Notes under the pieces: model-generated | Told to the model about the DNA's origin: nothing | The model's database searches: none | What the model saw: only the letters and a program-made list of their open reading frames with translations | Part shown: piece by piece, positions 37,562 through 54,829 of the stretch | How the letters are laid out: every line of letters starts with the position of its first letter | Numbering within the stretch: the first letter of the stretch is position 1 | Source of the DNA: Halalkaliarchaeum desulfuricum | GTDB taxonomy: Archaea > Halobacteriota > Halobacteria > Halobacteriales > Haloferacaceae | Reading direction: 5' to 3' | Assembly (NCBI RefSeq): GCF_002952775.1 | Contig: NZ_CP025066.1 | Location: forward strand, 2,480,001-2,544,000 | DNA length: 64,000 bases | Position numbers and translations under genes: made by a program

Positions 37562-38161
37562 TCAGTCGAGATCCGTTTCACGATCGACGTCCCGTATGAC
37601 GCCGGGGTCGTCGACGGGCACGGGCGTCGATCCGGGGTGTGTCTCCACCAGCCGTCGCCCGCCGCGGTCGCCGGTAACGGATCGCAGGGCGTCGAAATGT
37701 TCACCGGAAAACAGCACCGGATTCCCTCTCTCCCCCTCGAAGCTCGGCCACAGTATCGATCCCTCACTGTTCTCGTGGGCTTCGATCAGGGAGTCGACGG
37801 TGGTGGGGTCCACGAACGGCATGTCCCCGAGCCCGAAGACGGCGGCGGACCAGCCGCGATCGACAGCGTGATCCACGCCCGTTCGAACCGACGTGCTCTG
37901 ACCCTCGCTGAACCGTTCGTTTCGTCTCACCGCCACTGGAAGGTCCTCGACGAGCGCCGCGATCCGATCCGCCTCGAATCCCACGATGACGACCACTTCC
38001 TCGAGTCGGGATCGGAGGAGGCAACGCGTCGCACGGCGGACGATCGGTTCTCCGTCGAGTTCCACTGCGAGTTTGTTTCCTCCCTCGAATCGGGATGACG
38101 TTCCGGCGGCAAGCACGACACCACCCACCTCCACTGTGTCGCTGCCGCTGTTTCGGGTCAT
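37562..38161 (-). CDS. MocA/YgfJ-type molybdenum-cofactor nucleotidyltransferase
   Basis: A 199-residue GT-A-fold nucleotidyltransferase. The N-terminal GVVLAAGTSSRF loop and the FGLGDMPFVDP metal-site Asp are those of MobA-like enzymes. MocA adds CMP to molybdopterin for enzymes of the xanthine dehydrogenase family. The SDMH-linked subfamily (E. coli YgfJ) always accompanies Mo hydroxylases, as here. Its start overlaps the moeA stop by 4 nt, so the two are one operon. Confidence 0.9.
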   Translation of the reverse strand: MTRNSGSDTVEVGGVVLAAGTSSRFEGGNKLAVELDGEPIVRRATRCLLRSRLEEVVVIVGFEADRIAALVEDLPVAVRRNERFSEGQSTSVRTGVDHAVDRGWSAAVFGLGDMPFVDPTTVDSLIEAHENSEGSILWPSFEGERGNPVLFSGEHFDALRSVTGDRGGRRLVETHPGSTPVPVDDPGVIRDVDRETDLD

Positions 38162-39378
38162 GGCTCCAGAACGGTGTGCGGTGTCACATCAACGGTCGAT
38201 CCCTGCTCGAAGCCGTCTTCCGTCAGGACGAATCCGTCGGCCCGCGTCGCACGTGTACTCGAGGAGAGAACGCTCGGATCGAACGTGTCCCCGTACACGT
38301 CCAGTTCCGACGTGGCGTGTCCCAACGGGATTGCGTCGCCGTCGCGCAACCGCACGGGAATCGCGTACTCGAATCCCGGGACGGACACGGTCACGTCGGC
38401 GGCGGCGGTCGCCGGTATCGTCGCGATGTCGTCGGTTTCCGTGAAGAACGGCCGCACGACCAGCGACGCCACCGTGTGTGCACCGACAGGTTTTCCCGGA
38501 ATCGCGAACGCGACCGCGTCGTGGTCGGGGAGCCGAGCCGCAGCGAGCGGCTTCCCGGGTCGAATACGCACCCGGTGAAAGATGACTTCGCCGAGGGAAT
38601 CCAGGGCGCGAATCACGTGGTCCTTCTTGCCCACGCTCGTTCCGCCGGTCGTCATGACGACGTCGTGGGACGCAGCCGTCTCCTCGATCGCACGGACGAC
38701 GCGATCGTATTCGTCGGGAGCTGAGCCTTCGACAGTCGGGACGTGTCCCCACGATCGAACGAGCGCTGCGAGCATGGGGCTATCGAGATCTCGCGATCGC
38801 CCCTCGTGGATCTCCGTGCCCGTCGCGACGAGTCCGACATCGAAGGGATCGCAGGTACTGACGGACTCGATTCCGAGATCATGGAGGAGTATGGCGTCCC
38901 GTGGGGCCAGTTGCTCTCCCGGTTCGAACAGTTGTTCGCCCGCCGAGACGTTGCTTCCCTGCTCGTAGACGTAGGTGCCAGGTTCGATCTCCGGACCGGA
39001 GAGTGTCCCGTTCTCGACGGTCGCTTCCTCCTTTTTGAGTACGGCGTTCGCACGCTCGGGGATCGGCGCCCCGGTGGCGACCCGAACAGCCTGGTCGACC
39101 TCGATCGTCGGCGGGTCGTCCTCCGGGAACACCGCAAACTCGACGACCTCGAACGGGTACGCCTCGGTCGCGTCGAACGCGTACCCGTCCATGGTGGCTG
39201 TGGACCGCGTCGGATCGTCGCGCTGTGCTCGAACGGACTCTGCGAGCACGCGGCCGGAGCACGCCTCGGTGACGGACACCCGCCTCGCTTTTCGCCCCTC
39301 GAGGGATTCCTCCCGGAGGGTCTCCACGAGGGACACAGCCTCCCGTCGGGTCACCATCTCATCGTGACTGTGAGTCAT
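38158..39378 (-). CDS. moeA: Molybdopterin molybdotransferase MoeA
   Basis: A 406-residue MoeA that inserts molybdate into adenylated molybdopterin. STATMDGYAF, the GLVATGTEI strand, the MTTGGTSVGKKD loop and the AFAIPGKPVGA segment are present in order. Domain IV at the C terminus is complete. It is read together with the nucleotidyltransferase downstream. It probably serves the two Mo hydroxylases in the cluster. A housekeeping moeA may exist elsewhere. Confidence 0.93.
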   Translation of the reverse strand: MTHSHDEMVTRREAVSLVETLREESLEGRKARRVSVTEACSGRVLAESVRAQRDDPTRSTATMDGYAFDATEAYPFEVVEFAVFPEDDPPTIEVDQAVRVATGAPIPERANAVLKKEEATVENGTLSGPEIEPGTYVYEQGSNVSAGEQLFEPGEQLAPRDAILLHDLGIESVSTCDPFDVGLVATGTEIHEGRSRDLDSPMLAALVRSWGHVPTVEGSAPDEYDRVVRAIEETAASHDVVMTTGGTSVGKKDHVIRALDSLGEVIFHRVRIRPGKPLAAARLPDHDAVAFAIPGKPVGAHTVASLVVRPFFTETDDIATIPATAAADVTVSVPGFEYAIPVRLRDGDAIPLGHATSELDVYGDTFDPSVLSSSTRATRADGFVLTEDGFEQGSTVDVTPHTVLEP

Positions 39379-39474: not shown

Positions 39475-40521
39475 TCACTCGATGATGTCCCAGCCGCTCT
39501 GGTACTCCTCGAGCACGGATTTCGAGTAGTCGTCGAGGGGGTGTTCCCGGTCGGGAACCTCTACCTCGTAGTCGGGTTCGAAGAGCTTCGTGGTAAAGTA
39601 GCGGTGACCGGTGTCACAGATGATGGTGACGACCTCGTCGATCTCCTCCCGCTCGTTTGCGAGTCGGATCGCGCCCTCGATGTTCGCACCGCTGGAGATT
39701 CCACAGAAGACACCCTCCTCTTCGGCGAGGGTGCGGGAACGGTCGATCGCGGCCTGGCTCTCTACTGTAACGACGCCGTCCATGATCTCGGGATCCAGGT
39801 TCTCCGGGACGAACCCGTCGCCGATGCCTTCGATCTCGTGGGATCCCCACTCGCGACAGCGCAACAGGGGGGCCTCCTTCGGCTCGAGCGCGTAGATGGC
39901 CGCGTCGGGGTCCTCTTCCTGGAGCACTCGACCGACACCGGTCATCGTTCCGCCGGTACCCTGCCCGGCAACGAACGCGTCGGGGGCGTGTCCCAGCTGA
40001 TCGAGGATCTCCGGACCGGTCGTTTTCTCGTGTGCAAGGGGGTTGTCCTCGTTCGTGAACTGGTTCGGGAACCAGTAGCGATCCGGCTCCTCCTCGAGCA
40101 TTTCTTCGACCTTCTCGAGGGAGAGGTCGACGTCGCTTTCTGCGCCCGGGGTCTCGACGAGCTCCCCGCCGAACGCCCGGATCACCTTCTTTCGTTCCTC
40201 ACTCATCCCTTCCGGCATCACGACGGTAACGTCGTATCCCAGTCGGGTTCCGACGAACGTACACGCGATACCGGCGTTGCCGGTCGACGTCTCCAGGATC
40301 TCCATCCCGGGTTCGAGGTCGCCCCGCTCCTGTGCGGCGGTGATCATCTCCCGGTAGATCCGGTCTTTGATGCTCGAGGACGGGTTGAAGTACTCGAGCT
40401 TCCCGTAAATCCGTCCGTCCGCCTCTTGGCTTGCGCTCTCGATTTCGATCAGCGGCGTGTTTCCGATCGTGGAGAAAATGTCAGGCTGACTATCGTCAGT
40501 GTCACTACTGGTTTCGCTCAT
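39475..40521 (-). CDS. Cysteine synthase family PLP enzyme
   Basis: A 348-residue fold-type II PLP enzyme. The Schiff-base Lys is in NPSSSIKDRI, the phosphate loop in ETSTGNAGIA, and the GTGGTMTGVG loop binds PLP phosphate. It makes cysteine from O-acetylserine (or O-phosphoserine) and sulfide. A short acidic N-terminal extension is haloarchaeal. Its place in the SDMH cluster suggests a supply of cysteine as a sulfur or selenium carrier, but a general role is equally likely. E. coli has YgeX here, a different PLP enzyme. Confidence 0.88.
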   Translation of the reverse strand: MSETSSDTDDSQPDIFSTIGNTPLIEIESASQEADGRIYGKLEYFNPSSSIKDRIYREMITAAQERGDLEPGMEILETSTGNAGIACTFVGTRLGYDVTVVMPEGMSEERKKVIRAFGGELVETPGAESDVDLSLEKVEEMLEEEPDRYWFPNQFTNEDNPLAHEKTTGPEILDQLGHAPDAFVAGQGTGGTMTGVGRVLQEEDPDAAIYALEPKEAPLLRCREWGSHEIEGIGDGFVPENLDPEIMDGVVTVESQAAIDRSRTLAEEEGVFCGISSGANIEGAIRLANEREEIDEVVTIICDTGHRYFTTKLFEPDYEVEVPDREHPLDDYSKSVLEEYQSGWDIIE

Positions 40522-40557: not shown

Positions 40558-41316
40558 TTAGTTCTCCGGGACTGGTTCGAGCCAATCCTCGACGAACGAG
40601 GAGACGAACCCGGCAGAGAAGGCGTCCGTGCGCCGAAACGTCTCCCGAACGAGACTGCGGGCGAGGTGTCGCTGCTCCGTCGTATCTGCCTTGTTCACGA
40701 GGAGAACGGCCCTCGCGCGCTCCGGGATGTCTTTGGCGCCGCCGCGTTCGCTCGCGAGTACCGCTGCCATCGACTCCGGCGAGAGTGGATCGCCTCTCTC
40801 GATCCCCGCGATCTCGGCGACGCGTTCGGGGCGGTGCACACAGCCCGTATCGTTGGGTCGACCGGCGGCTGTAACCGAGGCAACCACCACAACGACCGTA
40901 CTTCGGGTCGGAATAACCGGCTCCCCCGGACCGGGAGCTTTGAATTCGCGGCGGCGCGCCCCGTCGGCTTTGACGAGCACCCAGTCCAGCGCGTTGCTGT
41001 CGTACAGGTCGTCGATCGACTCGGGATCGAAGCCTCGAACCTTCTTATCTGCTCGATCGGGGTCGAAAACCCATTCGCTCGCGACCGCGATCGGCGCAGT
41101 TCGTCCGGAAACCGCGGAGGACACCGTTTCCGGCGGGACACAAACGAGAGGAATCTCCGGTGGCGGCGGCATGTGTGTCGTCGTCGTGTATCCGGGAACC
41201 AGCCCCCGTGAATCCGCTTCCCGGGCGAGTTTCCCCATCGCGGTCTTCTTGCCCCCCGCCCCGACGAAGGAGACGAGTTCCCGGTCGCCGAGTTCGAGGG
41301 CGTCGGAGAGGTTCAT
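40558..41316 (-). CDS. yqeC: Selenium-dependent Mo-hydroxylase maturation protein YqeC
   Basis: A 252-residue protein starting MNLSDALELGD. Its P-loop-like SFVGAGGKKTAMGKLA, a strand ending in LVKADGARRREFKAPGPGEP and the late LLVNKADT match the YqeC family. YqeC is confined to genomes with the SDMH trait and is thought to prepare the Mo cofactor for selenium; its reaction is unknown. It diverges from the tusA-selD pair. The upstream 15 codons of the open frame were left out. Confidence 0.88.
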   Translation of the reverse strand: MNLSDALELGDRELVSFVGAGGKKTAMGKLAREADSRGLVPGYTTTTHMPPPPEIPLVCVPPETVSSAVSGRTAPIAVASEWVFDPDRADKKVRGFDPESIDDLYDSNALDWVLVKADGARRREFKAPGPGEPVIPTRSTVVVVVASVTAAGRPNDTGCVHRPERVAEIAGIERGDPLSPESMAAVLASERGGAKDIPERARAVLLVNKADTTEQRHLARSLVRETFRRTDAFSAGFVSSFVEDWLEPVPEN

Positions 41317-41386
41317 ACGTCCGGGTTCGGGTGTTCGGGGATTAATCTTACGCGGGGGCATACCCAGGGATCGATCGGGACAACAG

Positions 41387-41417: not shown

Positions 41418-41660
41418 ATGAAACGCGTGGACGTAACGGGAGAGATCTGTCCGAGGCCGGCGCTCATCGTTCGGGAGGAGTTGGCCTCGATGGAGACCGG
41501 CGACGAGCTGCTCGTCGAAGGTGATTACCCGCCCGCCGAGGACAACCTGCGCCGAGCCTGCACGAGACACGGCTTCGAGGTCGAATCCGCTGACGGTTCC
41601 GACGACACGTTCGAACTCAAGATCAGGGCGACCGACGACGCGTCGATCCCGGAGGCGTGA
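41418..41660 (+). CDS. TusA/YedF-like sulfur (selenium) carrier
   Basis: An 80-residue TusA-fold protein. The active Cys11 lies in ITxCPRP-like form (GEICPRPALIVREEL), followed by the typical GDELLVEGDYPPAEDNLRR strand-helix. TusA proteins carry persulfide. YedF, a relative, is often found beside selD. Only 3 bp separate it from selD, so it is read in the same transcript. A selenium-handling role is inferred from this pairing. Confidence 0.85.
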   Translation: MKRVDVTGEICPRPALIVREELASMETGDELLVEGDYPPAEDNLRRACTRHGFEVESADGSDDTFELKIRATDDASIPEA

Positions 41661-41663: not shown

Positions 41664-42719
41664 ATGCAATCAGAAAAGAGAGATGACGGCTCCGACGACA
41701 ACGACCGTGACGGTTCCCCCCGACTGACCCAGTACGCCGAACTACACGGCTGTTCCTGTAAGGTCGGTCAGGACGATCTCGACGCACTGCTGGCGGAGAC
41801 GGGGCCGTTCGACCCGAACGACGATCTTCTGTTCGGGGTCGGCGAAGACGCCGCGGCGCGGCAGCTAACTGAGGACCTGGCCATGGTAACGACGATCGAC
41901 TTCTTCACGCCGATCGTCGACGACCCGTACGACTTCGGACGCGTGGCGGCGTGCAACGCCGCGAGCGACGCGTTCGCCACGGGGGCGGTCGACAACCTCA
42001 CCGGTCTGGTAGCGATGGGGCTGCCCCGCGAACTGACCGACACCGCAGCGGAGATCCTCGCCGGGATCGTCGACGCGTTCGAAGCGATGGACGGCGTCGT
42101 CGCCGGGGGTCACACGACCCTGAACCCGTGGCCGTTTGCGGGCGCGGCAGTGACGGCGACGGCGTCGCCGGACGACCTTCTCACCGCATCCGGTGCCTCG
42201 CCCGGCGAGAGGCTCTATCTCACCAAACCGCTGGGGACCCAGCCGGCGATGGGGAGTCTCCGCGTCCGGGATGAGGAGTTCGAAGCGACCGTCAAGAACG
42301 CCTGTCCGCGGCCGGTCGAGGACGTCGGCCGGGAGGCGATAGAGTGGATGACGTCGCCGAACCGGGAGGGGGCCCGGATCGTTCGCGAGTACGCAACGAC
42401 GGCGACCGACGTCACGGGGTTCGGTCTGCTCGGTCAGGCGCGAATCATCGCGGAGCGATCCGGGGTCGGCATCGAGATCACCGAGTTCCCGGTCATCGAG
42501 GGAACCCTGGAACTCTCCCGGCTCTTCGGCTACGGCCTCGAATCGGGCGAAAGCGCGGAAACCAGCGGGGGGCTCCTCGTTTCAGTCCCGGCCGACCGGG
42601 CTGAACAACTGGAGGCCTCCCTCTCCCGTGCGGACGTGTTCTTCCATCCGATCGGGCGCGTGACCGACGGGGAGAACGCCTCCATCGCAGATCCGTCGAT
42701 TTCCGAAGTCACCCGATAG
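41664..42719 (+). CDS. selD: Selenide, water dikinase (selenophosphate synthetase), Cys form
   Basis: A 351-residue SelD that makes selenophosphate from selenide and ATP. The N-terminal active site reads HGCSCK with Cys30, Cys32 and Lys33, which align with Cys17, Cys19 and Lys20 of E. coli SelD. Further motifs are VTTIDFFTPIVDDPYDFG, AACNAASDAFATGA and GGHTTLNPW. No in-frame TGA is used, so no selenocysteine is needed. No selA, selB or ybbB-like gene is in the window. This fits an orphan SelD that serves only the Mo hydroxylase pathway. Confidence 0.95.
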   Translation: MQSEKRDDGSDDNDRDGSPRLTQYAELHGCSCKVGQDDLDALLAETGPFDPNDDLLFGVGEDAAARQLTEDLAMVTTIDFFTPIVDDPYDFGRVAACNAASDAFATGAVDNLTGLVAMGLPRELTDTAAEILAGIVDAFEAMDGVVAGGHTTLNPWPFAGAAVTATASPDDLLTASGASPGERLYLTKPLGTQPAMGSLRVRDEEFEATVKNACPRPVEDVGREAIEWMTSPNREGARIVREYATTATDVTGFGLLGQARIIAERSGVGIEITEFPVIEGTLELSRLFGYGLESGESAETSGGLLVSVPADRAEQLEASLSRADVFFHPIGRVTDGENASIADPSISEVTR

Positions 42720-42754: not shown

Positions 42755-44335
42755 TCATCCGAGCCGAAGCGCGGCCTCGAGCGCTCCGCCACCCAGACAC
42801 AGCGCCTTGTCGGAGATTTTCTCTGGATCGACGTCCTCGCCGCGCGGATCGACGTCCCCTGCCTTCTCCCCGTCTTCGAGGACGACCCCGTCGTGGACCA
42901 GTCCGCGAATCAGTCCGTCGATCTCCGTTCGTACGGGTTCGTCCCCGACGGTGCCGACGACGTCGTCCGCCTCGACGAGGTCGCCGATTTCGGCGTCCGA
43001 TTCGAAGCGCCCGTCGGTGGGTGCACGGAGCACGCGTTCGTGGGTGTATCCTCGTCGCTCGCCCGGTTCCCCGTCGTAGGGGCTGGCGGTCCCCTCGTAG
43101 ATGACCCGACCGAGTTCGTGTCCCCTGTCCGTCTCGACGACGGCGTCGACGTCATCCCCCGCCTCGAACCCGGGGCCGAGTCCGATCACGACGTCTGCGT
43201 CCCCGCGTCGCGTTCCAGTGTCGTACTTCCCCTTCGCCATGATCGCGTCGACGAGGACCTTCGCGTCGAACTCCTCGAGCAGTTTCGCGTCGGGATCCTC
43301 CAGGACGGGGACGTCCCCCTCTTCCAGCACGGCGAGGGCTTCCTCGACGTCGCCGGCCCGCCGGGCAGCCACCCCTTCGATTTCGACGTCCGCTTCGTAC
43401 ATCGCGGAGGCGAACGCGACGGCGCGGCGAACCACGGTCGGCTTCGCAACTTCCGTGACCACGACCGGATACCCCGCCTGGTGGAACCGGTAGGCAACGC
43501 CGCTGCCGAGGTCCCCGCCGCCACGAATCACGACCAGGTCGTCGATGTTCAGCCGAGTGGTGGGTTCCGCCGATGCGTCGTGACGGACTACGTTTATCTC
43601 TGCGAGAATCGAAAGCGCGATGTCCTCGGGCGTGCCGCCACCCAGATCCAGGCCGATCGGTGAGCGGACGCGAACGAGGTCGGATCGATCGTACCCCTCG
43701 TCGTGGAGGGAGTCCATAATCCGTTCGGCCTTCCGGTCGCTGGCAACGATTCCGACGTAGCCGGCGCCCCCATCGATGGCGGCGGCGGCTGCTCTCCCGT
43801 CGAAGGTGCCGCTCCGCGTGGCGACGGCCACCGAGGCGTCAGCTCCCATCGGCTGTTCCCGCAAAACCTCGCCGTAGTTCCCCCGAATGACGTCGACGCT
43901 GTCGGGGAAGTCTGCTGGGTCCGAATACTCCTCGCGATCGTCGACGACCGTTACGTCGTATCCGAGCTGCTCACCCATCGTCGCCAACTCCTGGCCGATG
44001 TGGCCGCCGCCAGCGACGTAAAGCCGCGATGGGCCCTGGATCCGGTCGATGAACACGTCCATCGTACCGCCACAGACCATGCCCGTGTTGCCGCCGGGGT
44101 CGAGTTCGTACTCCCGAACGCCCGGCTCCTCCCTGCCGGTCAGCACGTCCCGCGCGGCCTCGATCGCCAGCGCTTCGACGGTGCCTCCCCCGATCGTCCC
44201 GTACTCGTCTTCGGGTGTGACGACCATCCTGGCACCGACATCACGGGGGGCGCTCCCCTCTTTCCCGACGACAGTGATCATCGCCGCTTGCTCGCCGTTC
44301 TCCAGGAGGTCGACGGTGTCGTTGAAAACCTTCAT
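42755..44335 (-). CDS. XdhC-YqeB fusion, maturation factor of Se-Mo hydroxylase
   Basis: A 526-residue fusion. Residues 1-265 are XdhC/CoxI: MITVVGKEGSAPRDVGARM, the conserved CGGTMDVF and the Rossmann loop VAGGGHIGQELA. XdhC proteins bind the Mo cofactor and mediate its sulfuration. Residues 270-526 are YqeB (the EF2563 family): VVIRGGGDLGSGVAYRFHQAG, later DVVIGLGPGFEAG. YqeB is specific to the SDMH trait. Fusion places cofactor binding and the selenium-specific step in one protein. Its start overlaps the DsrH-like gene by 4 nt, which couples it to the relay trio. Confidence 0.93.
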   Translation of the reverse strand: MKVFNDTVDLLENGEQAAMITVVGKEGSAPRDVGARMVVTPEDEYGTIGGGTVEALAIEAARDVLTGREEPGVREYELDPGGNTGMVCGGTMDVFIDRIQGPSRLYVAGGGHIGQELATMGEQLGYDVTVVDDREEYSDPADFPDSVDVIRGNYGEVLREQPMGADASVAVATRSGTFDGRAAAAAIDGGAGYVGIVASDRKAERIMDSLHDEGYDRSDLVRVRSPIGLDLGGGTPEDIALSILAEINVVRHDASAEPTTRLNIDDLVVIRGGGDLGSGVAYRFHQAGYPVVVTEVAKPTVVRRAVAFASAMYEADVEIEGVAARRAGDVEEALAVLEEGDVPVLEDPDAKLLEEFDAKVLVDAIMAKGKYDTGTRRGDADVVIGLGPGFEAGDDVDAVVETDRGHELGRVIYEGTASPYDGEPGERRGYTHERVLRAPTDGRFESDAEIGDLVEADDVVGTVGDEPVRTEIDGLIRGLVHDGVVLEDGEKAGDVDPRGEDVDPEKISDKALCLGGGALEAALRLG

Positions 44336-44604
44336 ACGAAACTTTTCACCCCATCTTCGATAACGAGGCGCATCAATCTGTCGTACGTGATCGGTTCGAT
44401 CTCGGGCGGGAGGTCGACGCCGCGAACTTCGACGTCCCGTTCGACGGCGTACACCGGAACATCAACTGCCGGAACGGATTCACCCGGTTCCAGCAACACG
44501 CCGTCCTGTATCAAGACGAGTGTGACCTCCTGGTTCCCCTGGGCGGTTCTGAACGCAACCTCCGCAGACGGCTTGTCGACGAGGTAAATCATTGGTTGAA
44601 TCAA
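44332..44604 (-). CDS. DsrH/TusB-like small relay protein
   Basis: A 90-residue protein of the DsrE/DsrF/DsrH fold. The N-terminal strand IYLVDKPSAE is followed by VTLVLIQDGVLL and a VPVYAVERDVEVRG segment, as in DsrH/TusB. The conserved Cys of TusB is not evident here. It sits last in a trio, overlapping both the DsrF-like gene and xdhC-yqeB by 4 nt. It probably forms a complex with the two proteins before it. Confidence 0.7.
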   Translation of the reverse strand: MIQPMIYLVDKPSAEVAFRTAQGNQEVTLVLIQDGVLLEPGESVPAVDVPVYAVERDVEVRGVDLPPEIEPITYDRLMRLVIEDGVKSFV

Positions 44605-44954
44605 AACGTGAGCACGTGGTCCGCTTTTTCGAACAGTTCGGCAACCCGATCCTCCGTGAGAACGTCGATGTCGTCGTCGACGTCCTCGGCGTCGATCCCC
44701 CTGCTGTCGAGCGCCCCGGCATCCACCGCAAGGTTGCCGTCCTGTTCGACGAGTCCGGCGACATGGCCGTCCATGTCCAGCGCGTCCCTGTCGGCGGCTT
44801 CTCTTGCGGCGTAGACGCTGTCCTCGGTGAACAGGACGGTCACGTCGTGCCGGTCGAATCCGGAAGCGACGCCGTAGGCTGCCCGGATCCCCTCCGGCAC
44901 GTGAACGCGCCCGTACGGTGCCCGCGTCAACGCGACGACAACCGTGCGCTTCAA
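44601..44954 (-). CDS. DsrF/TusC-like small relay protein
   Basis: A 117-residue DsrE-superfamily protein. It starts at a TTG that overlaps the previous stop (TTGA), giving MKRTVVVALTRAPYG. The fold is seen in VTVLFTEDSVYAAR and the C-terminal ADHVLTF. A start at ATG further upstream would read the antisense of the preceding gene. It is the middle member of the trio. Confidence 0.72.
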   Translation of the reverse strand: MKRTVVVALTRAPYGRVHVPEGIRAAYGVASGFDRHDVTVLFTEDSVYAAREAADRDALDMDGHVAGLVEQDGNLAVDAGALDSRGIDAEDVDDDIDVLTEDRVAELFEKADHVLTF

Positions 44955-45322
44955 AGCGAGATCACCCTGTCTGCCTCCCCGAGCAGATCGGCCAGATCCG
45001 ACAGCAGTCCGACCTCGATCCCTTCGGGATAGGCCGTGTCGGGATCGATACCACGGGCGTCGATACAGAGCCCACAGCAGATCACCTCGGCGCCGGCCTC
45101 GATCAGTTCCTGGAACTTCTCCGTCGGCATGTCGCCGTAGAGCCCCTCCGTCGAGCCGTCCGGAAACTCCTGGCCGTCGATCGGGACGTAGATCCCGTCG
45201 AGGTAGTGAAAAAAAGTCACGTCGTGATCGTCCGAAAGCGCCGCCCGGCCCAGTTCGTAGGCCGTTCTCCACCGCTGGCTGTCGAACGGTCCCCCTGTAA
45301 GCACGATACCTACGTGTGACAT
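44951..45322 (-). CDS. DsrE/TusD-like relay protein with CxxC
   Basis: A 123-residue DsrE-family protein. It starts MSHVGIVLTGGPFDSQRW. The active-site segment EVICCGLCIDARGI has the conserved Cys of DsrE/TusD, which carries persulfide. Bacterial TusBCD relays sulfur from TusA for tRNA thiolation, and DsrEFH acts in sulfur oxidation. Neither system is present here. The trio lies 53 bp after the Mo hydroxylase large subunit, on the same strand, so it is likely in that operon. A role in chalcogen delivery to the Mo cofactor is inferred. Confidence 0.8.
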   Translation of the reverse strand: MSHVGIVLTGGPFDSQRWRTAYELGRAALSDDHDVTFFHYLDGIYVPIDGQEFPDGSTEGLYGDMPTEKFQELIEAGAEVICCGLCIDARGIDPDTAYPEGIEVGLLSDLADLLGEADRVISL

Positions 45323-45375
45323 AACGGGATATTAGTTGCCCCGGTTAAGAATCGTTCGCCGAACCGCCGGCAGTA

Positions 45376-47805
45376 TCAGTCGTCGCGCTCCTCGAGGGCC
45401 GCTTTCACGTCTTCGGGTTCGATCGGAAGCGACGTGAGACGCACGCCGACGGCGTCACGGATGGCGTTCGACAGCGCCGGCGCGACCCCGTTGGTCGGTA
45501 TCTCGCCGATCGATTTGGCGCCGAACGGGCCGGTCGGCTCGTGAGTCTCGACCAGGATCGTCTCCATCGGCGGGTGGTCGGTGGTCCGGGGCATCCCGTA
45601 CTGGCGGAACCCCAGCGTCTGGGGGTTTCCATCCTCGTCGAACTCCAGCGTACCACTTGTTGCGAACTCCAGGCTCATGTGCTCGCCACCTTCGACCTGC
45701 CCTTCCGCCAGTGGCGGGTTGATGGCGACACCACAGTCGACCGCACACACCAGCTTGTTGATCTCGTACTCGCCAGTTCGCTCGTCGACGGTGACATCGA
45801 CGAACTGCGCGGCGAACGGCGGCGGGCTTTCGTCGGTCGAGTGATGTCCCTTTCCGAGGATCTGTTCGCGCTCGTCGTCGCCGTAGGTCGCCTCGTAGCC
45901 TATTTCCTCCAGCGTGACCGACTCCCCGGTTTCCTCGCTGTACACCTCGCCGTCGGCGGTTTCGAGGTTCTCCGGCGACTCGTCGAGCAGCTTTGCTCCC
46001 CAGTACAGTAGCCGTTCTCTGGCGTCCTCGGCGGCCTCCTTGACCGCGCGGCCGCTGATGTAGGTCGTCGAGGAGGCGTACGACCCGTAGTCGAACGGCG
46101 TGAGGTCGGTGTCAGAAGAGGTGACCACGACGTCCTCGGGGGGACAGCCGAGCACCTCTGACGTAATCTGGGCGAACATGGTGTCGTTCCCCTGGCCGAG
46201 GTCGACACCGCCGACCTCCAAGTGGAACGACCCGTCCTCGTTCATCCGGATCTGCGCTGCGCCGAGTTCTTTGCCCGCGACCCCACTGCCCTGTGCGGCA
46301 AGGGCGACCCCGACACCGCGGTGGCGGTGCTCGGCCGCAGGCTGTTCGATGTCCTCCCAGCCGATCGCTTCCATCCCCCGGTCGATGCACTCCCGGATCC
46401 CACAGGAGCGAATGCGCCTGGCGAAGCGGTCGTTGTCATCGAGTATCGCTGCTATTTTGTCGAGATCGCCCTCGCGGACCGCGTTCCGCTTCCGGAACGC
46501 GATCGGGTCATCGCCGATCTCTCGCGCGAGTTCGTCGATGTGTGTCTCCAGCGCGAAGTGACCCTGGGGCGCACCGTAGCCACGCATCGCAGCTCCCATC
46601 GGCAGGTTCGTGTGGACCACGTCACCGACGAACCGAACGTTCGGCGTTCCGGCGTACACGGGCATCGACTTCGTCCCCGCGACGCCGGCGACTGTCATCC
46701 CGTGGGTGCCGTACGCGCCGGCGTTCGACGTAATGTCGAGTTCGACGGCTTCGAGCTCGCCCCCCTCGTTTGCGGCCGAGCGCACCCGGAGCTTCATCGG
46801 GTGACGGAACCGCATCGCGTAGAACTCTTCCCGCCGGGTTACCTCGACTGCGACCGGAACGCCGGCCTTCCGGTGCAGTGCCAGCGCTATCGGCTCGAGC
46901 ACCATCTCCTGTTTCGCGCCGAAACCCGCGCCGATCCGGGGTTTGATGACCCGAATATCGCGGATCGGGATGTCGAACACGTGTGACAGTTGCCGCCGCG
47001 TATGGTTCGGAACCTGGGTTGCCGTGATGAACGTGTACCGACCGTCCTCGTCCGTGTACGCGATCGTCGTGTGCGGTTCGGGGACGCAGTGTGACTGGTA
47101 GGGCGTCTCGGCTACTGTCTCGAGGGTGTACTCCTCGTCTGCTTCGGTGATGGCTGCGTCGACGTCGCCGATCTCTCCCTCGAAGTGCGACTCCAGGTTT
47201 CGCTCGTAGTCGGCACCCGACTGCTGGTTTTCGACCTCGTCGTCCTCGAACAACCGAGGCGCGTCCGGCTCCGTCGCCTCCTCCACGTCGAGAACGTAAT
47301 CGAGTTCCTCGTACTCGACGTCGATCTTGCGGGCCGCCCGATCTGCCGTCTCCGTGTCCTCGGCGGCCACCGCTGCGACCGGGTCGCCGACGAACCGGAC
47401 GTGCTTCCGGAGCACCCGCATGTCCCAGGGGCTCGGTTCGGGGTACGACTGTCCCGAACTGGAATACAGCGTGTCCGGTACCTCCTCGTCGAACGGCGTG
47501 AGGACCGCGTAGACGCCGTCCATCGCTTCGGCCTCGCTTGTGTCGACGTCCGTGACGTACCCGTGGGCGACGTCGCTCCTGACGATCGTCGCCTCCGCGA
47601 GTTCGGGGAACCGGTCGCGGAAGTCGCCGGTGTACCGCGCCTCGCCGGTGACGATCTTCCGTGCGTCGCTTTTCTCCTCGTCGTTCGTGATCGCGTCGCG
47701 TTCTTCGGGATCCGTTCGGTTGTTCTCTGGCTCGTCCCACTCGAGGGGGTGTTGCTCGTCGTCCGACGCGTCGCTCTCGTGGGTCGGCTCGTCGGGCTTG
47801 CTCAT
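45376..47805 (-). CDS. Mo-binding subunit of a xanthine dehydrogenase-family hydroxylase (copy 1)
   Basis: An 809-residue molybdopterin-cytosine-dinucleotide subunit. Typical motifs are GEARYTGDF, the GAGFGAKQ loop near the cofactor, AMRGYGAPQG with the substrate-site Arg, GGVDLGQGNDTM and the catalytic Glu768 in GPFGAKSIGE. It should hydroxylate a purine or related heterocycle. A 45-residue acidic N-terminal leader precedes the first domain. It overlaps its [2Fe-2S] subunit by 4 nt. No FAD subunit gene is found. Co-location with SelD, YqeB and YqeC marks it as a probable selenium-dependent enzyme. Confidence 0.94.
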   Translation of the reverse strand: MSKPDEPTHESDASDDEQHPLEWDEPENNRTDPEERDAITNDEEKSDARKIVTGEARYTGDFRDRFPELAEATIVRSDVAHGYVTDVDTSEAEAMDGVYAVLTPFDEEVPDTLYSSSGQSYPEPSPWDMRVLRKHVRFVGDPVAAVAAEDTETADRAARKIDVEYEELDYVLDVEEATEPDAPRLFEDDEVENQQSGADYERNLESHFEGEIGDVDAAITEADEEYTLETVAETPYQSHCVPEPHTTIAYTDEDGRYTFITATQVPNHTRRQLSHVFDIPIRDIRVIKPRIGAGFGAKQEMVLEPIALALHRKAGVPVAVEVTRREEFYAMRFRHPMKLRVRSAANEGGELEAVELDITSNAGAYGTHGMTVAGVAGTKSMPVYAGTPNVRFVGDVVHTNLPMGAAMRGYGAPQGHFALETHIDELAREIGDDPIAFRKRNAVREGDLDKIAAILDDNDRFARRIRSCGIRECIDRGMEAIGWEDIEQPAAEHRHRGVGVALAAQGSGVAGKELGAAQIRMNEDGSFHLEVGGVDLGQGNDTMFAQITSEVLGCPPEDVVVTSSDTDLTPFDYGSYASSTTYISGRAVKEAAEDARERLLYWGAKLLDESPENLETADGEVYSEETGESVTLEEIGYEATYGDDEREQILGKGHHSTDESPPPFAAQFVDVTVDERTGEYEINKLVCAVDCGVAINPPLAEGQVEGGEHMSLEFATSGTLEFDEDGNPQTLGFRQYGMPRTTDHPPMETILVETHEPTGPFGAKSIGEIPTNGVAPALSNAIRDAVGVRLTSLPIEPEDVKAALEERDD

Positions 47806-48314
47806 CGGTTCTCACCTCCGCCGCCGTCGGCGACGATCTTCGATTCCGCTCCCATGCGGTCTGCGGCGTCCAGCACCGCCTCGACGATCTTCTTGTAGCC
47901 GGTACACCGACAGAGGTTCTCCGAGAGCGCCTCGCGAACCTCCGCTTCCGTCGGGTCGGGGTTTTCCTCGAGCAACGCCGTCGACCGCATTACCATGCCC
48001 GGGATGCAAAAGCCGCACTGGAGCGCGCTGTTGTCGACGAACGCCTGCTGTACCGGATGGAGATCGTCCTGATCGCCCAGTCCCTCGATGGTTCGGACCG
48101 ACGACCCGTCGGCCTTCGCCGCCGGCACGACACACGACGTTTCGGGTTCGCCGTCCACGAGAACCGTACAGAACCCACAGGCACCGGTGTCACACCCCCG
48201 CTTTGCCCCGGTGTAGCCGCTTTCTCGGAGGACGTCCAATAAACTATCCGTTTTCGATGCCTGGAGCGTGTGTTCGGCTCCGTTGATTTCGAGCGTGACT
48301 TGCAATTGGATCAC
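47802..48314 (-). CDS. [2Fe-2S] subunit of Mo hydroxylase (copy 1)
   Basis: A protein of about 170 residues. The plant-type cluster motif GCDTGACGFC and a downstream Cys (ETSC) are complete. The second cluster cysteines are CGFC and CRCTGY. It passes electrons from the Mo centre to an acceptor. Two non-ATG starts are possible: GTG at 48314 and TTG at 48305. Both lie downstream of the promoter at 48362-48369, which excludes the ATG at 48389. It is first in the operon with its large subunit. Confidence 0.9.
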   Translation of the reverse strand: MIQLQVTLEINGAEHTLQASKTDSLLDVLRESGYTGAKRGCDTGACGFCTVLVDGEPETSCVVPAAKADGSSVRTIEGLGDQDDLHPVQQAFVDNSALQCGFCIPGMVMRSTALLEENPDPTEAEVREALSENLCRCTGYKKIVEAVLDAADRMGAESKIVADGGGGENR

Positions 48315-48361
48315 CCGGATCGCATCCGCGACCGTTATGCCTCCCGGTTCGAAGCGAGAGC

Positions 48362-48369
48362 TTAAAAAT
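48362..48369 (-). promoter_or_regulatory. TATA box of the copy-1 hydroxylase operon
   Basis: TTTTTAAG on the minus strand. A start site near 48340 would precede the GTG start of the [2Fe-2S] subunit. It lies in the spacer after the adenine deaminase gene. Confidence 0.4.
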
Positions 48370-48401
48370 CCCTTGCGAGAATATCTCACAATTAAAATCC
48401 G

Positions 48402-50102
48402 TCACACTCGCTGGTCGCCGACGACGACATCGACGTGATCGAAGGAGCCGACGTCGACAAGCCCCCTGTTCGTCAACCGGTATTCCGGGATGACTTCCAG
48501 CGCCAGGAACGACAGCTCCATCAGTCCCCCCTCGTGTGTCAATCCAATGTCTCGGGCGGCTGATTCGACGGATTCGAAGACGTCCTTCACCGCTGTCAAC
48601 TGTTGGTCCGACATCAACCCGGCGACCGGAAGTGCGAGCGAGGTCACTTCGTCCGTGGTCGGGTCGTAGGCCGCGATTCCCCCATCGATGCTTCGGAGAT
48701 GATTCGCCACCCGCGTCATGGCCTCGTGAGAAGCTCCGGCGACGATACAGTTGTGCGCGTCGTGGGCGACGGTCGAACCCACGGCCCCGCGTTCGATCCC
48801 CAGCCGGTGGACGAACCCGCGGCCGATCTCTCCCTGGTTGCCGTGACGCTCGATGACGGCAAGCGGGATGACGTCCGCGTCGGTATCGGCCACCAGTGCG
48901 CCGTCGAGGCCCTCAGGGGGTGACGTGGTTTCGACCGGGACGGTCGTTTCCATACGGGCAGTCTGTAGCCCGCCGACCGCGTCGACGACGCGAACCGTGA
49001 CCGGCCCGGAGCCGGCGTGTTCGATCGCGAGGTCTGCAGGCTCGAGTGGATCGAATCGAACGGTGTCGGTTTCGATCTCCGAAGCGGGGGGCTCGTCGGC
49101 ACCCTCCGTGGGAATGACCTCGCCGTCGATGACGACGTGGTCGACATCCCAGTCTTCCAGATCGGACAACAGTACCAGGTCAGCGGGAACTCCGGGGGTG
49201 ATCCGGCCGAACGGTAGATCGTAACTCTCGGCGGTGTTTATCGTCGCCATCTGGACGGCCTCGACGGGGTCGACGCCCAGCGACATCGCCTTCTCGACGA
49301 CGAAGTCGATCCCCCCCTTTTCGACCAGGTCGACGACGTCCCTGTCGTCGGTACAAAGCGAGAGCCGCCTCGTGTCGACTTCCTCGACCAGCCCGACGAG
49401 GTCCTTGAGGTTTCTGCTGGCCGATCCCTCCCTGAGGTACACCCGAAGCCCGGCTTTGACCTTCTCGCGGGCCTCCTCGATCGCGATGCTCTCGTGGTCG
49501 TTGTCGAGATGCCGCGCGACTTCCTGGAGGTCGCTTCCCGTGACACGCGGGGCGTGGCCGTCCACGGTCATATCCCGCTCGCGGGCCGCCCTGATCTTCC
49601 GCATGACAGTTTCGTCACCGGCGAGCACGCCGGGAACGTTCATGACTTCCCCGAGCGCGACCGTTTTCGGTTCGTCCAGCAGGGCTGCGACCTCCTCCGG
49701 GCCGACTGCCGCACCCGCGTCCTGGAGGTGGGACGCCGGCACCGACGACGGAACTGTAAACCGTGCTTTGAGCGGAGTGTGTTCCGCGTCGGAAAGCAGT
49801 GCCCGAACCCCGTCGGCCCCGAGGACGTTTGCTATCTCGTGGGGATCGTGGATCACGCTCGTCACGCCGCGTGGAACGACAGCGGCACCGTATCGAGGGA
49901 GCGTCACCATCGACGATTCGACGTGCATGTGTGCGTCGATCAGCCCTGGCGCCACGTACGCCGTCTCTATCTCGCGCTCTGCCGGACGTTCTTCGAGCGC
50001 AACGATCTCCCCGTCGTCGACCGCAACCGCACCGTCGTCGAGCGTTCCCGCGGTCACGTTGACGAGCCTGCCCCGTATGAGGAGGTCGACGGTGTCACCC
50101 AT
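48402..50102 (-). CDS. ade: Adenine deaminase
   Basis: A 566-residue two-domain amidohydrolase that converts adenine to hypoxanthine and ammonia. The metal site has PGLIDAHMHVESSM, a HDPHEIANVLG segment, DGHAPRV and a SLCTDDRDV strand. The C-terminal domain ends in a HEGGLMEL-SFLALEVIPEYRLTN stretch typical of Ade. It starts at ATG 50102. It lies between the two hydroxylase operons, on the same strand. Its product would be the substrate of a purine hydroxylase. Confidence 0.95.
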   Translation of the reverse strand: MGDTVDLLIRGRLVNVTAGTLDDGAVAVDDGEIVALEERPAEREIETAYVAPGLIDAHMHVESSMVTLPRYGAAVVPRGVTSVIHDPHEIANVLGADGVRALLSDAEHTPLKARFTVPSSVPASHLQDAGAAVGPEEVAALLDEPKTVALGEVMNVPGVLAGDETVMRKIRAARERDMTVDGHAPRVTGSDLQEVARHLDNDHESIAIEEAREKVKAGLRVYLREGSASRNLKDLVGLVEEVDTRRLSLCTDDRDVVDLVEKGGIDFVVEKAMSLGVDPVEAVQMATINTAESYDLPFGRITPGVPADLVLLSDLEDWDVDHVVIDGEVIPTEGADEPPASEIETDTVRFDPLEPADLAIEHAGSGPVTVRVVDAVGGLQTARMETTVPVETTSPPEGLDGALVADTDADVIPLAVIERHGNQGEIGRGFVHRLGIERGAVGSTVAHDAHNCIVAGASHEAMTRVANHLRSIDGGIAAYDPTTDEVTSLALPVAGLMSDQQLTAVKDVFESVESAARDIGLTHEGGLMELSFLALEVIPEYRLTNRGLVDVGSFDHVDVVVGDQRV

Positions 50103-50242
50103 GACGACCACCTGCCGTTTCGCCGCAGCACCTGTAGGCGCTGGTATCCAGCATAGTAAATGCTGGAACAACCGCGCACATATAATTTGCCTCCGGGGAG
50201 ATCGACGGTGGAAAACAAGACCCAAAAACGCCGGGTGCGATC

Positions 50243-52678
50243 TCAGTCGGAGCGTTCGGATCCGTCGAGGCCGGCCTTGATCTTCTCTGCGGTGATCGGC
50301 ATCTCCGAGATCCGGACTCCGACGGCGTCCCTGATCGCGTTCGACAGCGCAGGGGGGACGGTGTTCGTCGGGACCTCCGCGACCGACTTCGCGCCGAACG
50401 GACCGGTCGGTTCGTGGGTCTCGACCAGGATCGCCTCGATCGACGGCGTTTCGCTGGCCGACGGGATGTCGTACTCGCTGTAGGCAGTGACTTCCGGGCG
50501 CCCGTTCTCGTCGAAAGTGACCCCTTCACCGACCGCCATCTCGTAGCTCATGTGATTGGCGCCCTCGATTTGCCCCTCCGCCATGCCGGGGTTGATCGCG
50601 ACGCCACAGTCGACCGCGACGGCGAGGTCGTTCACTTCGAATTCGCCCGTGCGCTCGTCGACGGTGACGTCGACGAACTGTGCGGCGAACGGTGGCGGGC
50701 TCTCCTCGGTGCAGTGGCTTCCCTTCCCGAGAATGTGTTCGCGCTCGTCGTCGCCGTACGCCGCCTCGAAGCCGACTTCCTCCAGGGGCAGCGACCCGCC
50801 GGTCTCCTCGCTGTACACCTCGCTGTCGGCGGTTTCGAGGTTCTCCACCGGCTCGTCGAGGAGTTTGCCCGCCCACTCGAGGATCCGCTCTTTGGCATCC
50901 TCCGCGGCCTTCTTCACCGCCATGCCGCTGATGTAGGTCGTCGACGAGGCGTACGCGCCGTAATCGAACGGGGTGACGTCGGTGTCGGCTGCCTTGATGA
51001 CGATGTCGTCTTCGGGGCAGCCGAGCACCTCCGCCGCGATCTGAATCATCGCGGTGTCTGCTCCGGTTCCGATGTCGACGCCACCGACGTGCAGGTGGAA
51101 CGACCCGTCTTCGTTCATCATGATCTGGGCCGCCCCGAGTTCGTCGCCCGCCACACCGGTGCCCTGGGCCGACAGCGCGACACCCTGGCCTCGATGGAGG
51201 TGTGGCTCGTCGGGCTCATCGTACTCGCCCCACCCGATCGCCTCCATGCCGCGCTCGATACATTCGTCCAGCCCACACGAGCGGATTATCCGATCGGCGC
51301 CTTCCCCGCCCATGGCTCCGGCGATCTCGTCGACGTCTCCGACCTCCATGTAGTGTTTCTGTCGGAACGCGATCGGGTCGAACCCGAGATCCCTCGCGAC
51401 TTCGTCGAGGTGCCCCTCGACTGCCAGGGTTCCCTGCGGGGCGCCGTACCCGCGCATCGCGCCCGTCTGCGGGGTATTCGTGTGAACGATGTCCGCAACG
51501 AACCGCACGTTGGGAACCTTCGAGTACATCGGCAGGGGCTTTGCGCCGACGTTGCCGGCGACAGTCATCCCGTGGCTCCCGTACGCCCCGGTGTTCGAGA
51601 GCGCGTACAGTTCGATCGCCTCGATGTCGCCGTCGTCGGTAACCGCGGTCCGGGTCCGGAGTCGCATTGGATGGCGCCGCCGCATGGCGTGGAACTCCTC
51701 TTTCCGACTCGCCTCGTACATGACGGGCCGGCCGATCGCGAGCGATAGCGTCATCGGAATCGGCTCGATGACCATGGCCTGTTTGCCGCCGAATCCACCG
51801 CCGACGCGCGGCTTCTTGACCCGGATGTCCCGGATGGGAACGTCGAAGAGGTGCGCGAGCTGCCGGCGCGTGTGGTTCGGCACCTGGGTGCTCGTGATGA
51901 CCACGATGCGGTCGTCCTCGTCGGTGTACACCAGGGACGTGTGTTTCTCCAGTTGAGCGTGGACCTGCGGGCTCGATTCCCACTCGGTTTCGTGGACGTG
52001 GACGTCGTCACGCTCGAACTGCTCGCGGGCGTCCCCGAGTTCGCCCTCGATGTGCGACATCCGGTTCCGCTCGTAGTCGTGTCCGACGATCTTGTTTTCG
52101 ACCTCGTCGTCGTCGAACAGTTGCGGGGCATCGGGATCGAACGCCTCCTCCGGATCGAGCACGTAGTCGTACTCCTCGTACTCGATGTCGACCGTTTCCG
52201 CCGCGCTATCGGCGGTTTCCTGGCTTTCGGCCGCGATAGCCACGATCGGATCGCCCACGTACCGGACGGTCTCGTTGAGCACGTTCATGTCCCACGGACT
52301 CGGCTCCGGATACGACTGTCCCGCGCTGGTGTACTTGTTGTCGGGGACCTCCTCGGACCACGGGGTGAGCACGGCGAGGACCCCGTCCATCTCCTCGGCC
52401 TCCTCGGTGTGTATCTCCGTCACCTTGCCGTGAGGGATCTCGCTTCGGACGACCGCCGCGTGCGCCAGGTCGGGGAACTGCTCTGCATAGTCTGCGGTAA
52501 ACTTCGCGTCGCCCGTGACGAGTTTGGGATCGTCGTACTTCGGCGGCGACCGCGAAACGCTCAGTCGTTCCTCCGGGTCTTTGCGGTTGTTCTCCGATTC
52601 GTCCCACTCCAGCAACGGCTCTTCTGCGGTCACTTCCTCTGCTGTACCGCCGTCGGACACTGTATCGTTGTCATCCAT
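50243..52678 (-). CDS. Mo-binding subunit of a xanthine dehydrogenase-family hydroxylase (copy 2)
   Basis: An 811-residue paralogue of copy 1, aligned over its whole length, including the LLEWDESENN leader. It has GGGFGGKQ, AMRGYGAPQG, GGVDIGTGADTA and Glu768 in GPFGAKSVAE. Sequence differences around the substrate pocket (for example AESSPQVHAQ-type region in place of VAETPYQSHC) suggest a different purine or heterocycle. It starts 5 nt after its [2Fe-2S] subunit. Like copy 1 it lacks a FAD subunit. Confidence 0.94.
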   Translation of the reverse strand: MDDNDTVSDGGTAEEVTAEEPLLEWDESENNRKDPEERLSVSRSPPKYDDPKLVTGDAKFTADYAEQFPDLAHAAVVRSEIPHGKVTEIHTEEAEEMDGVLAVLTPWSEEVPDNKYTSAGQSYPEPSPWDMNVLNETVRYVGDPIVAIAAESQETADSAAETVDIEYEEYDYVLDPEEAFDPDAPQLFDDDEVENKIVGHDYERNRMSHIEGELGDAREQFERDDVHVHETEWESSPQVHAQLEKHTSLVYTDEDDRIVVITSTQVPNHTRRQLAHLFDVPIRDIRVKKPRVGGGFGGKQAMVIEPIPMTLSLAIGRPVMYEASRKEEFHAMRRRHPMRLRTRTAVTDDGDIEAIELYALSNTGAYGSHGMTVAGNVGAKPLPMYSKVPNVRFVADIVHTNTPQTGAMRGYGAPQGTLAVEGHLDEVARDLGFDPIAFRQKHYMEVGDVDEIAGAMGGEGADRIIRSCGLDECIERGMEAIGWGEYDEPDEPHLHRGQGVALSAQGTGVAGDELGAAQIMMNEDGSFHLHVGGVDIGTGADTAMIQIAAEVLGCPEDDIVIKAADTDVTPFDYGAYASSTTYISGMAVKKAAEDAKERILEWAGKLLDEPVENLETADSEVYSEETGGSLPLEEVGFEAAYGDDEREHILGKGSHCTEESPPPFAAQFVDVTVDERTGEFEVNDLAVAVDCGVAINPGMAEGQIEGANHMSYEMAVGEGVTFDENGRPEVTAYSEYDIPSASETPSIEAILVETHEPTGPFGAKSVAEVPTNTVPPALSNAIRDAVGVRISEMPITAEKIKAGLDGSERSD

Positions 52679-52683
52679 GGGTC

Positions 52684-53229
52684 TCACTCTCCGGTCGTGT
52701 GTTCGGTTCCCGTTCGGGACGGTTCGTCGTTCGTCTCGGCCACACCGCCGTCCGCCACGACGGTCGGATCGTCCTGTAGCCGTTCGGCGGCGTCCTGGAT
52801 GGCCTCGACCGGCTTCTGGTATCCCGTACAGCGACAATAGTTGTCCGAAAGCGCTTCACGTATCTGCTCTTCGGTGGGCGAGGGTTCCTCCTCGAGCAGT
52901 TCGACCGCCTGGATGATCATCCCGGGCGTACAGAACCCACACTGGACCGCGAAGTGGTCCACGAACGCCTGTTGAATCGGGTGGAGATCCCGCTGGGTTC
53001 CGAGCCCTTCAATAGTCACGATTTCTCCCCCGTCGACCTCCTCGACGGTCGTGCCGCAGGCCATCTTCGCCTGCCCGTCGATCAGTACCTTCGATGCCCC
53101 ACACTCTCCGCCGTCACACCCACACTTGACTCCGGTGTATCCGTTGTGTCGTAACGCGGTGGCCAGATCTGCGTCGCGAGGGGCTGAAAGGGTTGTAGAT
53201 TCGCCGTTGATTGTAAGTTCGGTATTCAC
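52684..53229 (-). CDS. [2Fe-2S] subunit of Mo hydroxylase (copy 2), one cluster Cys replaced
   Basis: A 181-residue subunit starting at GTG 53229, with a perfect AGGAGGT 7 nt upstream. The first cluster motif reads CGCDGGECGASK: the third of the usual four ligands (CGxC) is Ser, codon TCG. An extra Cys lies two residues before the first ligand. The second cluster (CGFC, CRCTGY) is intact. The change could alter redox potential, or the extra Cys could substitute. It is first in a two-gene operon. Confidence 0.92.
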   Translation of the reverse strand: MNTELTINGESTTLSAPRDADLATALRHNGYTGVKCGCDGGECGASKVLIDGQAKMACGTTVEEVDGGEIVTIEGLGTQRDLHPIQQAFVDHFAVQCGFCTPGMIIQAVELLEEEPSPTEEQIREALSDNYCRCTGYQKPVEAIQDAAERLQDDPTVVADGGVAETNDEPSRTGTEHTTGE

Positions 53230-53236
53230 TGTGTGT

Positions 53237-53243
53237 ACCTCCT
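53237..53243 (-). promoter_or_regulatory. Strong ribosome binding site that fixes the GTG start
   Basis: AGGAGGT on the minus strand, 7 nt before GTG. Such a strong site is rare in this window and decides the start of the copy-2 [2Fe-2S] gene. Confidence 0.8.
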
Positions 53244-53273
53244 GAATGTAAAGGTGAGTTAGAGACAGGAACA

Positions 53274-53280
53274 CATATAA
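53274..53280 (-). promoter_or_regulatory. TATA box of the copy-2 hydroxylase operon
   Basis: TTATATG on the minus strand, about 45 bp before the GTG. It leaves a leader of about 20 nt that includes the ribosome binding site. Confidence 0.5.
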
Positions 53281-53361
53281 CTGAGGGTGAGTTCCCAGTG
53301 GCTCCGGACACGTTAACGGTCATGCGTAACCTCTTTGATAACGGCGCATCATCTATGTCCC

Positions 53362-54030: not shown

Positions 54031-54043
54031 CCGACGGACGACG

Positions 54044-54050
54044 TTTTTTT
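54044..54050 (+). terminator. T7 tract after npdG
   Basis: Seven consecutive T 13 bp after the npdG stop. A T tract without a hairpin is the usual archaeal termination signal. Confidence 0.5.
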
Positions 54051-54090
54051 CCGACCCGCAGTCACTCTTGCCGACCCGCAGTCACTCTTC
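54051..54090. repeat. 20-bp tandem duplication at the 3' end of the SufU-like gene
   Basis: 54051-54070 and 54071-54090 differ only at the last base. The second copy contains the stop codon and last codon of the SufU-like gene; the first copy is an extra untranslated copy. Confidence 0.9.
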
Positions 54091-54462: not shown

Positions 54463-54529
54463 CCTATATAAAAGTAGATATCCTGTCGTGAAGAAAGTTA
54501 TCCCCCCTCCACGGCGTCGACGACGGTCG

Positions 54530-54829
54530 TCACGTCGACCCGAGCGACGACCCGAGCGACGACAGTTCGGTAACGCGGATCCTGAGGGCGAACTCCCCGT
54601 TTTCCCCTTCGGTCGACTCCTCGCTCACGTCGAACCCGTGCGTGAGACAGGCTCGCCGGATACTGTCCTTTGCTGGAGGATAGTCGCCGACGACGACCAG
54701 TTCCTCGCCCGGCTCCATCGTCTCGAGCCGCCGGCGGACTTCGCGTACCGGAACGGGACAGACCAGCCCGGTGACGTCCACTTTCACTTTTCGATCTTTG
54801 AGCCGCCCGCCTATAACGTTCACGTCCAT
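54530..54829 (-). CDS. TusA-like sulfur carrier, second copy
   Basis: A 99-residue TusA-fold protein with Cys24 in GLVCPVPVREV and the following GEELVVVGDYPPAKDSIRRA. It is clearly related to the selD-linked copy. The N-terminal extension of about 15 residues and a Ser/Gly-rich tail are extra. It lies upstream of the SufU-like gene on the same strand. A second carrier suggests two acceptors or two chalcogens. Confidence 0.85.
   Translation of the reverse strand: MDVNVIGGRLKDRKVKVDVTGLVCPVPVREVRRRLETMEPGEELVVVGDYPPAKDSIRRACLTHGFDVSEESTEGENGEFALRIRVTELSSLGSSLGST

Follow-up and report, generated by a model that had tools for sequence, protein, structure and literature searches.

A stretch of 64,000 nucleotides of the Halalkaliarchaeum desulfuricum chromosome (positions 2,480,001 to 2,544,000 of NZ_CP025066.1, here called the window; the replicon is a haloarchaeal chromosome of 3.3 Mb in one contig) raises the question of why three genes resembling dsrE, dsrF and dsrH should stand between a molybdenum (Mo) hydroxylase and a gene for an XdhC–YqeB fusion protein. 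A preliminary description of the locus proposed that the three proteins form a relay delivering sulfide or selenide to the Mo cofactor (Moco) held by XdhC–YqeB. Here we examine what the genes are, with which partners they travel and which cargo their setting favours.

Transcription runs on the minus strand from the FeS subunit through the Mo subunit, DsrE, DsrF and DsrH to XdhC–YqeB. A [2Fe-2S] subunit (47802..48389; PF01799, PF00111) and a molybdopterin subunit of 809 residues (45376..47805; PF02738 and PF20256, with XdhA as the best NCBIfam model, under its cut-off) are followed, after a gap of 53 nt, by a DsrE-like protein of 123 residues with the motif C82-C83-G-L-C86 (44951..45322; PF02635, 76 bits), a DsrF-like protein of 117 residues with a TTG start (44601..44954; PF02635, 35 bits; solved DsrF 2hy5_B, E=1.2e-6), a DsrH-like protein of 86 residues from a conserved ATG (44332..44592; PF04077, 25.2 bits; TM0979, PDB 1rhx, E=5e-7) and the 526-residue XdhC–YqeB fusion (42755..44335; TIGR03309, 352 bits against a cut-off of 220; PF13478, 124 bits). 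DsrE and DsrF score above the Pfam DsrE cut-off and DsrH barely above that of PF04077 (24.4), and the Pfam matches, with those to profiles of solved structures, place DsrE, DsrF and DsrH folds in three adjacent genes. The genes, their order, their families and the 53-bp spacing from the Mo subunit are as first described.

The preliminary description had also read a 4-nt overlap at each junction from DsrE to XdhC–YqeB and had taken the overlaps as an argument for the relay. The DsrE/DsrF overlap (TTGA) and the DsrH/XdhC overlap (ATGA) both measure 4 nt and are kept in all 29 relatives compared; two metagenome-assembled relatives outside the 29 (L094, L099) instead leave some 20 nt between DsrE and DsrF. 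A 4-nt overlap between DsrF and DsrH needs a TTG start at 44604. Because relatives start DsrH at an ATG 1–3 nt past the DsrF stop, and the equivalent ATG here lies at 44592 and leaves an 8-nt gap, this third overlap is probably not real on sequence comparison, and the argument is weakened to the two junctions that hold. The interval 45323–45382, as in many relatives, is AT-rich with a TATA-like stretch, recognized by eye, that precedes the DsrE ATG by some 30 nt; the trio and XdhC–YqeB may thus have their own promoter.

Just beyond the genes covered by that description, and not named in it, lie SelD, the selenophosphate synthetase (41664..42719, plus strand; TIGR00476, 265 bits, cut-off 125), a TusA-like sulfurtransferase with a CPxP motif (41418..41660, plus strand; PF01206, 63 bits) and YqeC, a marker of selenium-dependent Mo hydroxylases (SDMH) (40558..41361, minus strand; TIGR03172, 187 bits, cut-off 73). 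tusA is just upstream of selD, and the two are convergent with XdhC–YqeB. Since SelD, TusA and YqeC adjoin XdhC–YqeB, the locus reads as a selenium locus; by the published marker rule for the selenium-cofactor trait, namely SelD, YqeB and YqeC together (PMC9312934), all of which here exceed their curated cut-offs within 4 kb, it is an SDMH locus as judged from sequence. Beyond YqeC follow a cysteine-synthase-like gene (39475..40521, between moeA and yqeC), a MoeA-like molybdenum insertase (38158..39378, minus strand; PF03453, PF00994) that overlaps mocA, and a MocA-like Mo cofactor cytidylyltransferase (37562..38161, minus strand; TIGR03310, 135 bits, under the cut-off of 186). At 35114–36535, upstream of the selenium locus, lies a gene whose product combines FG-GAP repeats with an ASPIC/UnbV domain.

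Two FeS+Mo subunit pairs of xanthine oxidase-family hydroxylases lie close by, at 45376–48389 and about 50243–53274. The second falls within a purine and ureide catabolic island (48402–62722) that also encodes an adenine deaminase, a 5'-deoxyadenosine deaminase, an allantoate amidohydrolase-type enzyme, YgeY and carbamate kinase (both over cut-off), an OTC/YgeW-like carbamoyltransferase and a xanthine-type permease. Because this island resembles the ygeW–ygfO region of E. coli (PMC2276186), the analogy suggests that the enzymes served are purine hydroxylases.

SDMH loci with an orphan SelD, including that of Haloarcula marismortui, were predicted in 2008 (Haft and Self, PMC2276186; Zhang, PMC2432076), and plasmid pNG700 of H. 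marismortui (L112) carries the same locus in identical gene order. SelD, a TusA/SirA-like protein, YqeC, the XdhC–YqeB fusion, MocA and Mo hydroxylase subunits are common to those descriptions and the window; the trio, in contrast, is absent from both texts. Neither DsrE nor DsrH turned up when PMC2276186 was searched, and PMC2432076 names DsrE only for the C-terminal domain of EF2566. The H. marismortui trio is annotated as two copies of 'DsrE family protein' and a 'hypothetical protein'. In the literature that we searched, with subscription papers outside its scope, no report of the trio in a selenium-cofactor role was found. The earlier remark that no precedent was known thus stands for the trio and falls for the SDMH locus, published in 2008, and for the link of the related protein YedF to selenium (PMC5322559).

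How tightly the trio keeps to this setting emerges from 391 Halobacteria genomes, in each of which we looked for XdhC, SelD, YqeB and the DsrE subfamily of the window. Scores over the cut-off were obtained for YqeB in 30 genomes and for SelD in 30; a profile of the window-type DsrE scores 217–257 bits in 30, with the next full-length match at 33 bits. The three lists, compared by hand, are the identical 30 genomes, a coincidence with a chance of about 1e-45 if genomes were independent, which they are not. These genomes span nine genera and five families, several of which also hold negatives, and the identity of the sets rules out chance or an annotation artefact. XdhC_C, by comparison, is over cut-off in 166 of the 391. 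Because some 136 genomes with XdhC and without YqeB or SelD also do without the trio, the trio is tied to selenium and not to XdhC generally, a candidate association that these genomes rule out. The preliminary wording had left sulfide and selenide side by side; this exact tracking of SelD and YqeB favours selenium.

Gene order points the same way. The arrangement E-F-H-XdhC-YqeB, with the trio directly 5' of the fusion, is kept in 30 of 30 genomes. In 23 of 29 relatives the trio is immediately preceded by the Mo subunit, at a gap of 48–111 nt; four of the other six have adenine deaminase there instead, and two have neither gene adjacent. Since the trio stays even where no Mo subunit adjoins it, it goes with XdhC–YqeB and SelD, and a tie to the Mo subunit itself is ruled out. 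Fifteen haloarchaeal plasmid records with YqeB also carry the DsrE gene. A separate contig scan with strict patterns returned only 18 Halobacteria loci, a count that is no proof of absence elsewhere, and distance correlations calculated between the genes reflect only the co-inheritance of linked genes. That the trio belongs to the selenium-cofactor module is strongly supported, and, with no full-length exception among the 391 genomes, it offers specific, testable proteins and residues tied to this trait. The association with XdhC–YqeB and Mo hydroxylase maturation first put forward for it is borne out, with every one of the 30 full occurrences at a yqeB locus and not among dsr or tRNA-thiolation genes.

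This context bears on whether the trio could be an ordinary sulfur relay, serving either dissimilatory sulfur metabolism or the thiolation of tRNA, that came to lie in the SDMH block by chance. The family resemblance to DsrEFH and TusBCD would be expected of such a relay; yet in the window genome DsrC/TusE (PF04358) was not found and no MnmA exceeded its cut-off, wherever the class has the trio in full it stands at a yqeB locus, and the three proteins fall far under the NCBIfam cut-offs for TusD, TusC and TusB (for the set TIGR03010/03011/03012, scores over cut-offs of 32/94, 27/49 and 21/89 bits). The missing partners and the yqeB context largely refute either role, and we regard this reading as extremely improbable.

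The locus is chromosomal in the window genome, whereas many relatives carry it on a plasmid or secondary replicon, and the only sampled congener (G318) lacks YqeB, SelD and the trio; congener absence and plasmid location suggest recent transfer. Genes that share a mobile block may co-occur through linkage as well as through function, and both facts would also suit a trio with a separate, non-selenium role that merely travels on a plasmid-borne block. Against such hitchhiking, adenine deaminase, Mo subunits, CysK and MoeA vary among the loci whereas the trio is constant in 30 of 30, and no full-length DsrE copy occurs outside yqeB genomes, so that we consider it very unlikely. Among the variable genes, the cysteine-synthase-like gene (inside the locus in some relatives only, also L049 and L054) could serve selenium or sulfur supply.

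A decayed copy of the locus is preserved in Natronococcus jeotgali (G130, contig_102, L110). There, only residues 1–34 of DsrE remain, and codon 34 runs straight into 47 nt that match about codons 37–52 of the xdhC of a relative (L110 6001–6200); after the junction comes a Mo subunit gene on the opposite strand. Neither YqeB nor SelD was found over cut-off in this genome. As read from the junction, a deletion removed the remainder of the trio together with the XdhC–YqeB gene. This shared loss is, with gene content, order, co-occurrence and the conserved cysteines, a direct observation.

Outside Halobacteria, the picture changes. No trio adjoins yqeB in the loci of E. coli, Peptoclostridium acidaminophilum or Collinsella. 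In two genomes from another lineage of the phylum (L121, L122), YqeB lies beside separate XdhC, MocA and Mo hydroxylase genes; the trio was not found within the 16–18 kb examined, and DsrE-family genes lie on other contigs. SelD is over cut-off in one of these two genomes; the other (G565, 95% complete) has none over cut-off. Across archaeal yqeB neighbourhoods, the trio is accordingly present in 30 of 30 Halobacteria and not in these two. A universal SDMH role for it is rejected by the YqeB loci examined that lack it, and as far as we searched the trio marks a haloarchaeal form of the SDMH system. These YqeB systems without an adjacent trio, bacterial and archaeal, count against the mechanism proposed below.

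Which residues could carry a cargo is indicated by conservation. In DsrE, the motif CCGLC is present in 30 of 30 sequences; in a second set C82 varies, and C83 and C86 are invariant. C83 and C86 align with the CxxC of YchN (1jx7), and their match to DsrE Cys78 is by inspection only. An alignment of 30 sequences shows no conserved cysteine in DsrF or DsrH. Such a distribution fits DsrEFH and TusBCD, in which the DsrE/TusD cysteine (Cys78 in DsrE) is the only one to bind sulfur and pass it on in vitro (PMC3397948). Among the putative partners, TusA C11 (in CPxP), SelD C30 and C32, and XdhC C88 are invariant in relatives. YqeB C513, near the C terminus, is present in 30 of 30 of the first set, is serine in one metagenome-assembled genome (L094) and is absent from four bacterial YqeB proteins (E. 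coli, Peptoclostridium, Collinsella and E. faecalis); from its conservation, we regard it as a candidate acceptor. The structure model of DsrE has low confidence (pLDDT 58), with DsrEFH as its best PDB match (E=0.004), and that of XdhC–YqeB confirms the XdhC fold (against 2we8 and 3on5) with a whole-chain pTM of 0.48, too low for C88–C513 distances. Residues 434–500, in the C-terminal part of YqeB, are predicted to form a beta-rich domain (pLDDT about 71–94); a biotin-carrier-like resemblance has been noted for C. difficile YqeB (PMC11448449).

We propose, with somewhat more confidence than doubt, that the trio together with TusA passes selenium to Moco on XdhC–YqeB, acting as a DsrEFH-type complex that is a constant component of the selenium-cofactor module. 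SelD would make selenophosphate, or TusA would carry selenium or sulfur as perselenide or persulfide, and DsrE would take the atom over from TusA on its CGLC cysteines. DsrF and DsrH, with no conserved cysteine, would act as scaffold and docking partners, and the EFH complex would dock on XdhC–YqeB, the product of the next gene in the operon. From there the atom would move to molybdopterin on the XdhC half, possibly via YqeB C513 or XdhC C88, and the selenated cofactor would pass to the nearby two-subunit Mo hydroxylases, probably purine hydroxylases. That the complex forms, which way the atom moves, that the cargo is selenium and not sulfur, and which residues take part are inferred here. Three published observations make a selenium-passing role the most likely one: Moco acquires its equatorial sulfur while on XdhC, ahead of insertion (PMC2997495), TusA and type II DsrEFH exchange sulfur through the DsrE cysteine (PMC13293266), and yqeB and selD mutants of C. 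difficile have like phenotypes on xanthine and urate (PMC11448449).

The same setting admits an earlier point of action, at which the trio would work before SelD in selenite or selenide reduction, in trafficking to SelD or in buffering toxic selenide. Co-occurrence with SelD is as exact as that with YqeB, CGxC looks redox-active, tusA is beside selD, and YedF is also found with SelD outside SDMH systems and has been proposed for selenium-related redox processes (PMC5322559). However, the conserved 4-nt overlaps join the trio to XdhC–YqeB, and selD is on the other strand; we judge this placement unlikely, though it deserves serious weight. Somewhat less probable still is that the trio delivers sulfur, either for a sulfido-Mo intermediate on XdhC–YqeB that later exchanges it for selenium or for a sulfido enzyme. 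The characterized DsrEFH and TusBCD complexes of the studies consulted carry sulfur (PMC3397948, PMC13293266), ordinary XdhC-bound Moco is sulfurated (PMC2997495) and moeA and yqeC are separated by a cysteine-synthase-like gene, but the roughly 136 XdhC genomes without YqeB or SelD manage without this DsrE subfamily. Under the selenium-passing reading, the trio is probably a haloarchaeal, selenium-dedicated member of the DsrE/F/H family with an (EFH)2-type complex. The broader claim, that such a dedicated carrier supplies the missing transfer step of the selenium cofactor and is the first DsrE/F/H complex with selenium as cargo, is one that we advance tentatively, at slightly less than even confidence. 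The haloarchaea concerned are reported to be without the selenocysteine and selenouridine traits (PMC5322559).

Set beside known systems, the trio shares with type I DsrEFH and TusBCD its three genes in the order E-F-H, a conserved DsrE cysteine and matches of its DsrF and DsrH profiles to DsrF and DsrH-like folds; it differs from them in scoring under all of TIGR03010–03012, in the CGLC of its DsrE, in its selenium locus and, relative to type I DsrEFH, in having no equivalent of DsrH Cys20. Type II DsrEFH (PMC13293266), compared by description only, is likewise a divergent DsrEFH with TusA nearby, and tusA here is near the trio on the opposite strand; the type II partners, however, are YeeE/YedE and reductive dsr genes rather than XdhC–YqeB and SelD. 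The proposed route resembles that of XdhC and NifS4 in Rhodobacter capsulatus (PMC2997495) in placing the final ligand onto XdhC-bound Moco, whereas the donor there is a cysteine desulfurase and the ligand sulfur, in place of the DsrEFH-type complex proposed here. YedF (TIGR03527) is a TusA–DsrE fusion of bacteria for which a link to selenium had been made before (PMC5322559). Its E. faecalis gene sits between selD and yqeC-yqeB, and the DsrE domain carries CGAC, with which CGLC aligns, although as a whole the two profiles match poorly (hhalign probability 13%) and mainly in the motif. Both systems have TusA and a DsrE with CGxC by selD and yqeC-yqeB; in the haloarchaea, by contrast, TusA and DsrE are separate genes, TusA scores only 31 bits against the YedF model (cut-off 110), and DsrF and DsrH are added. 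By analogy of motif and position, we suggest that the bacterial TusA–DsrE fusion parallels haloarchaeal TusA and DsrE, with DsrF and DsrH, and the trio's link to the selenium-cofactor trait thereby hints at the role of YedF in bacteria.
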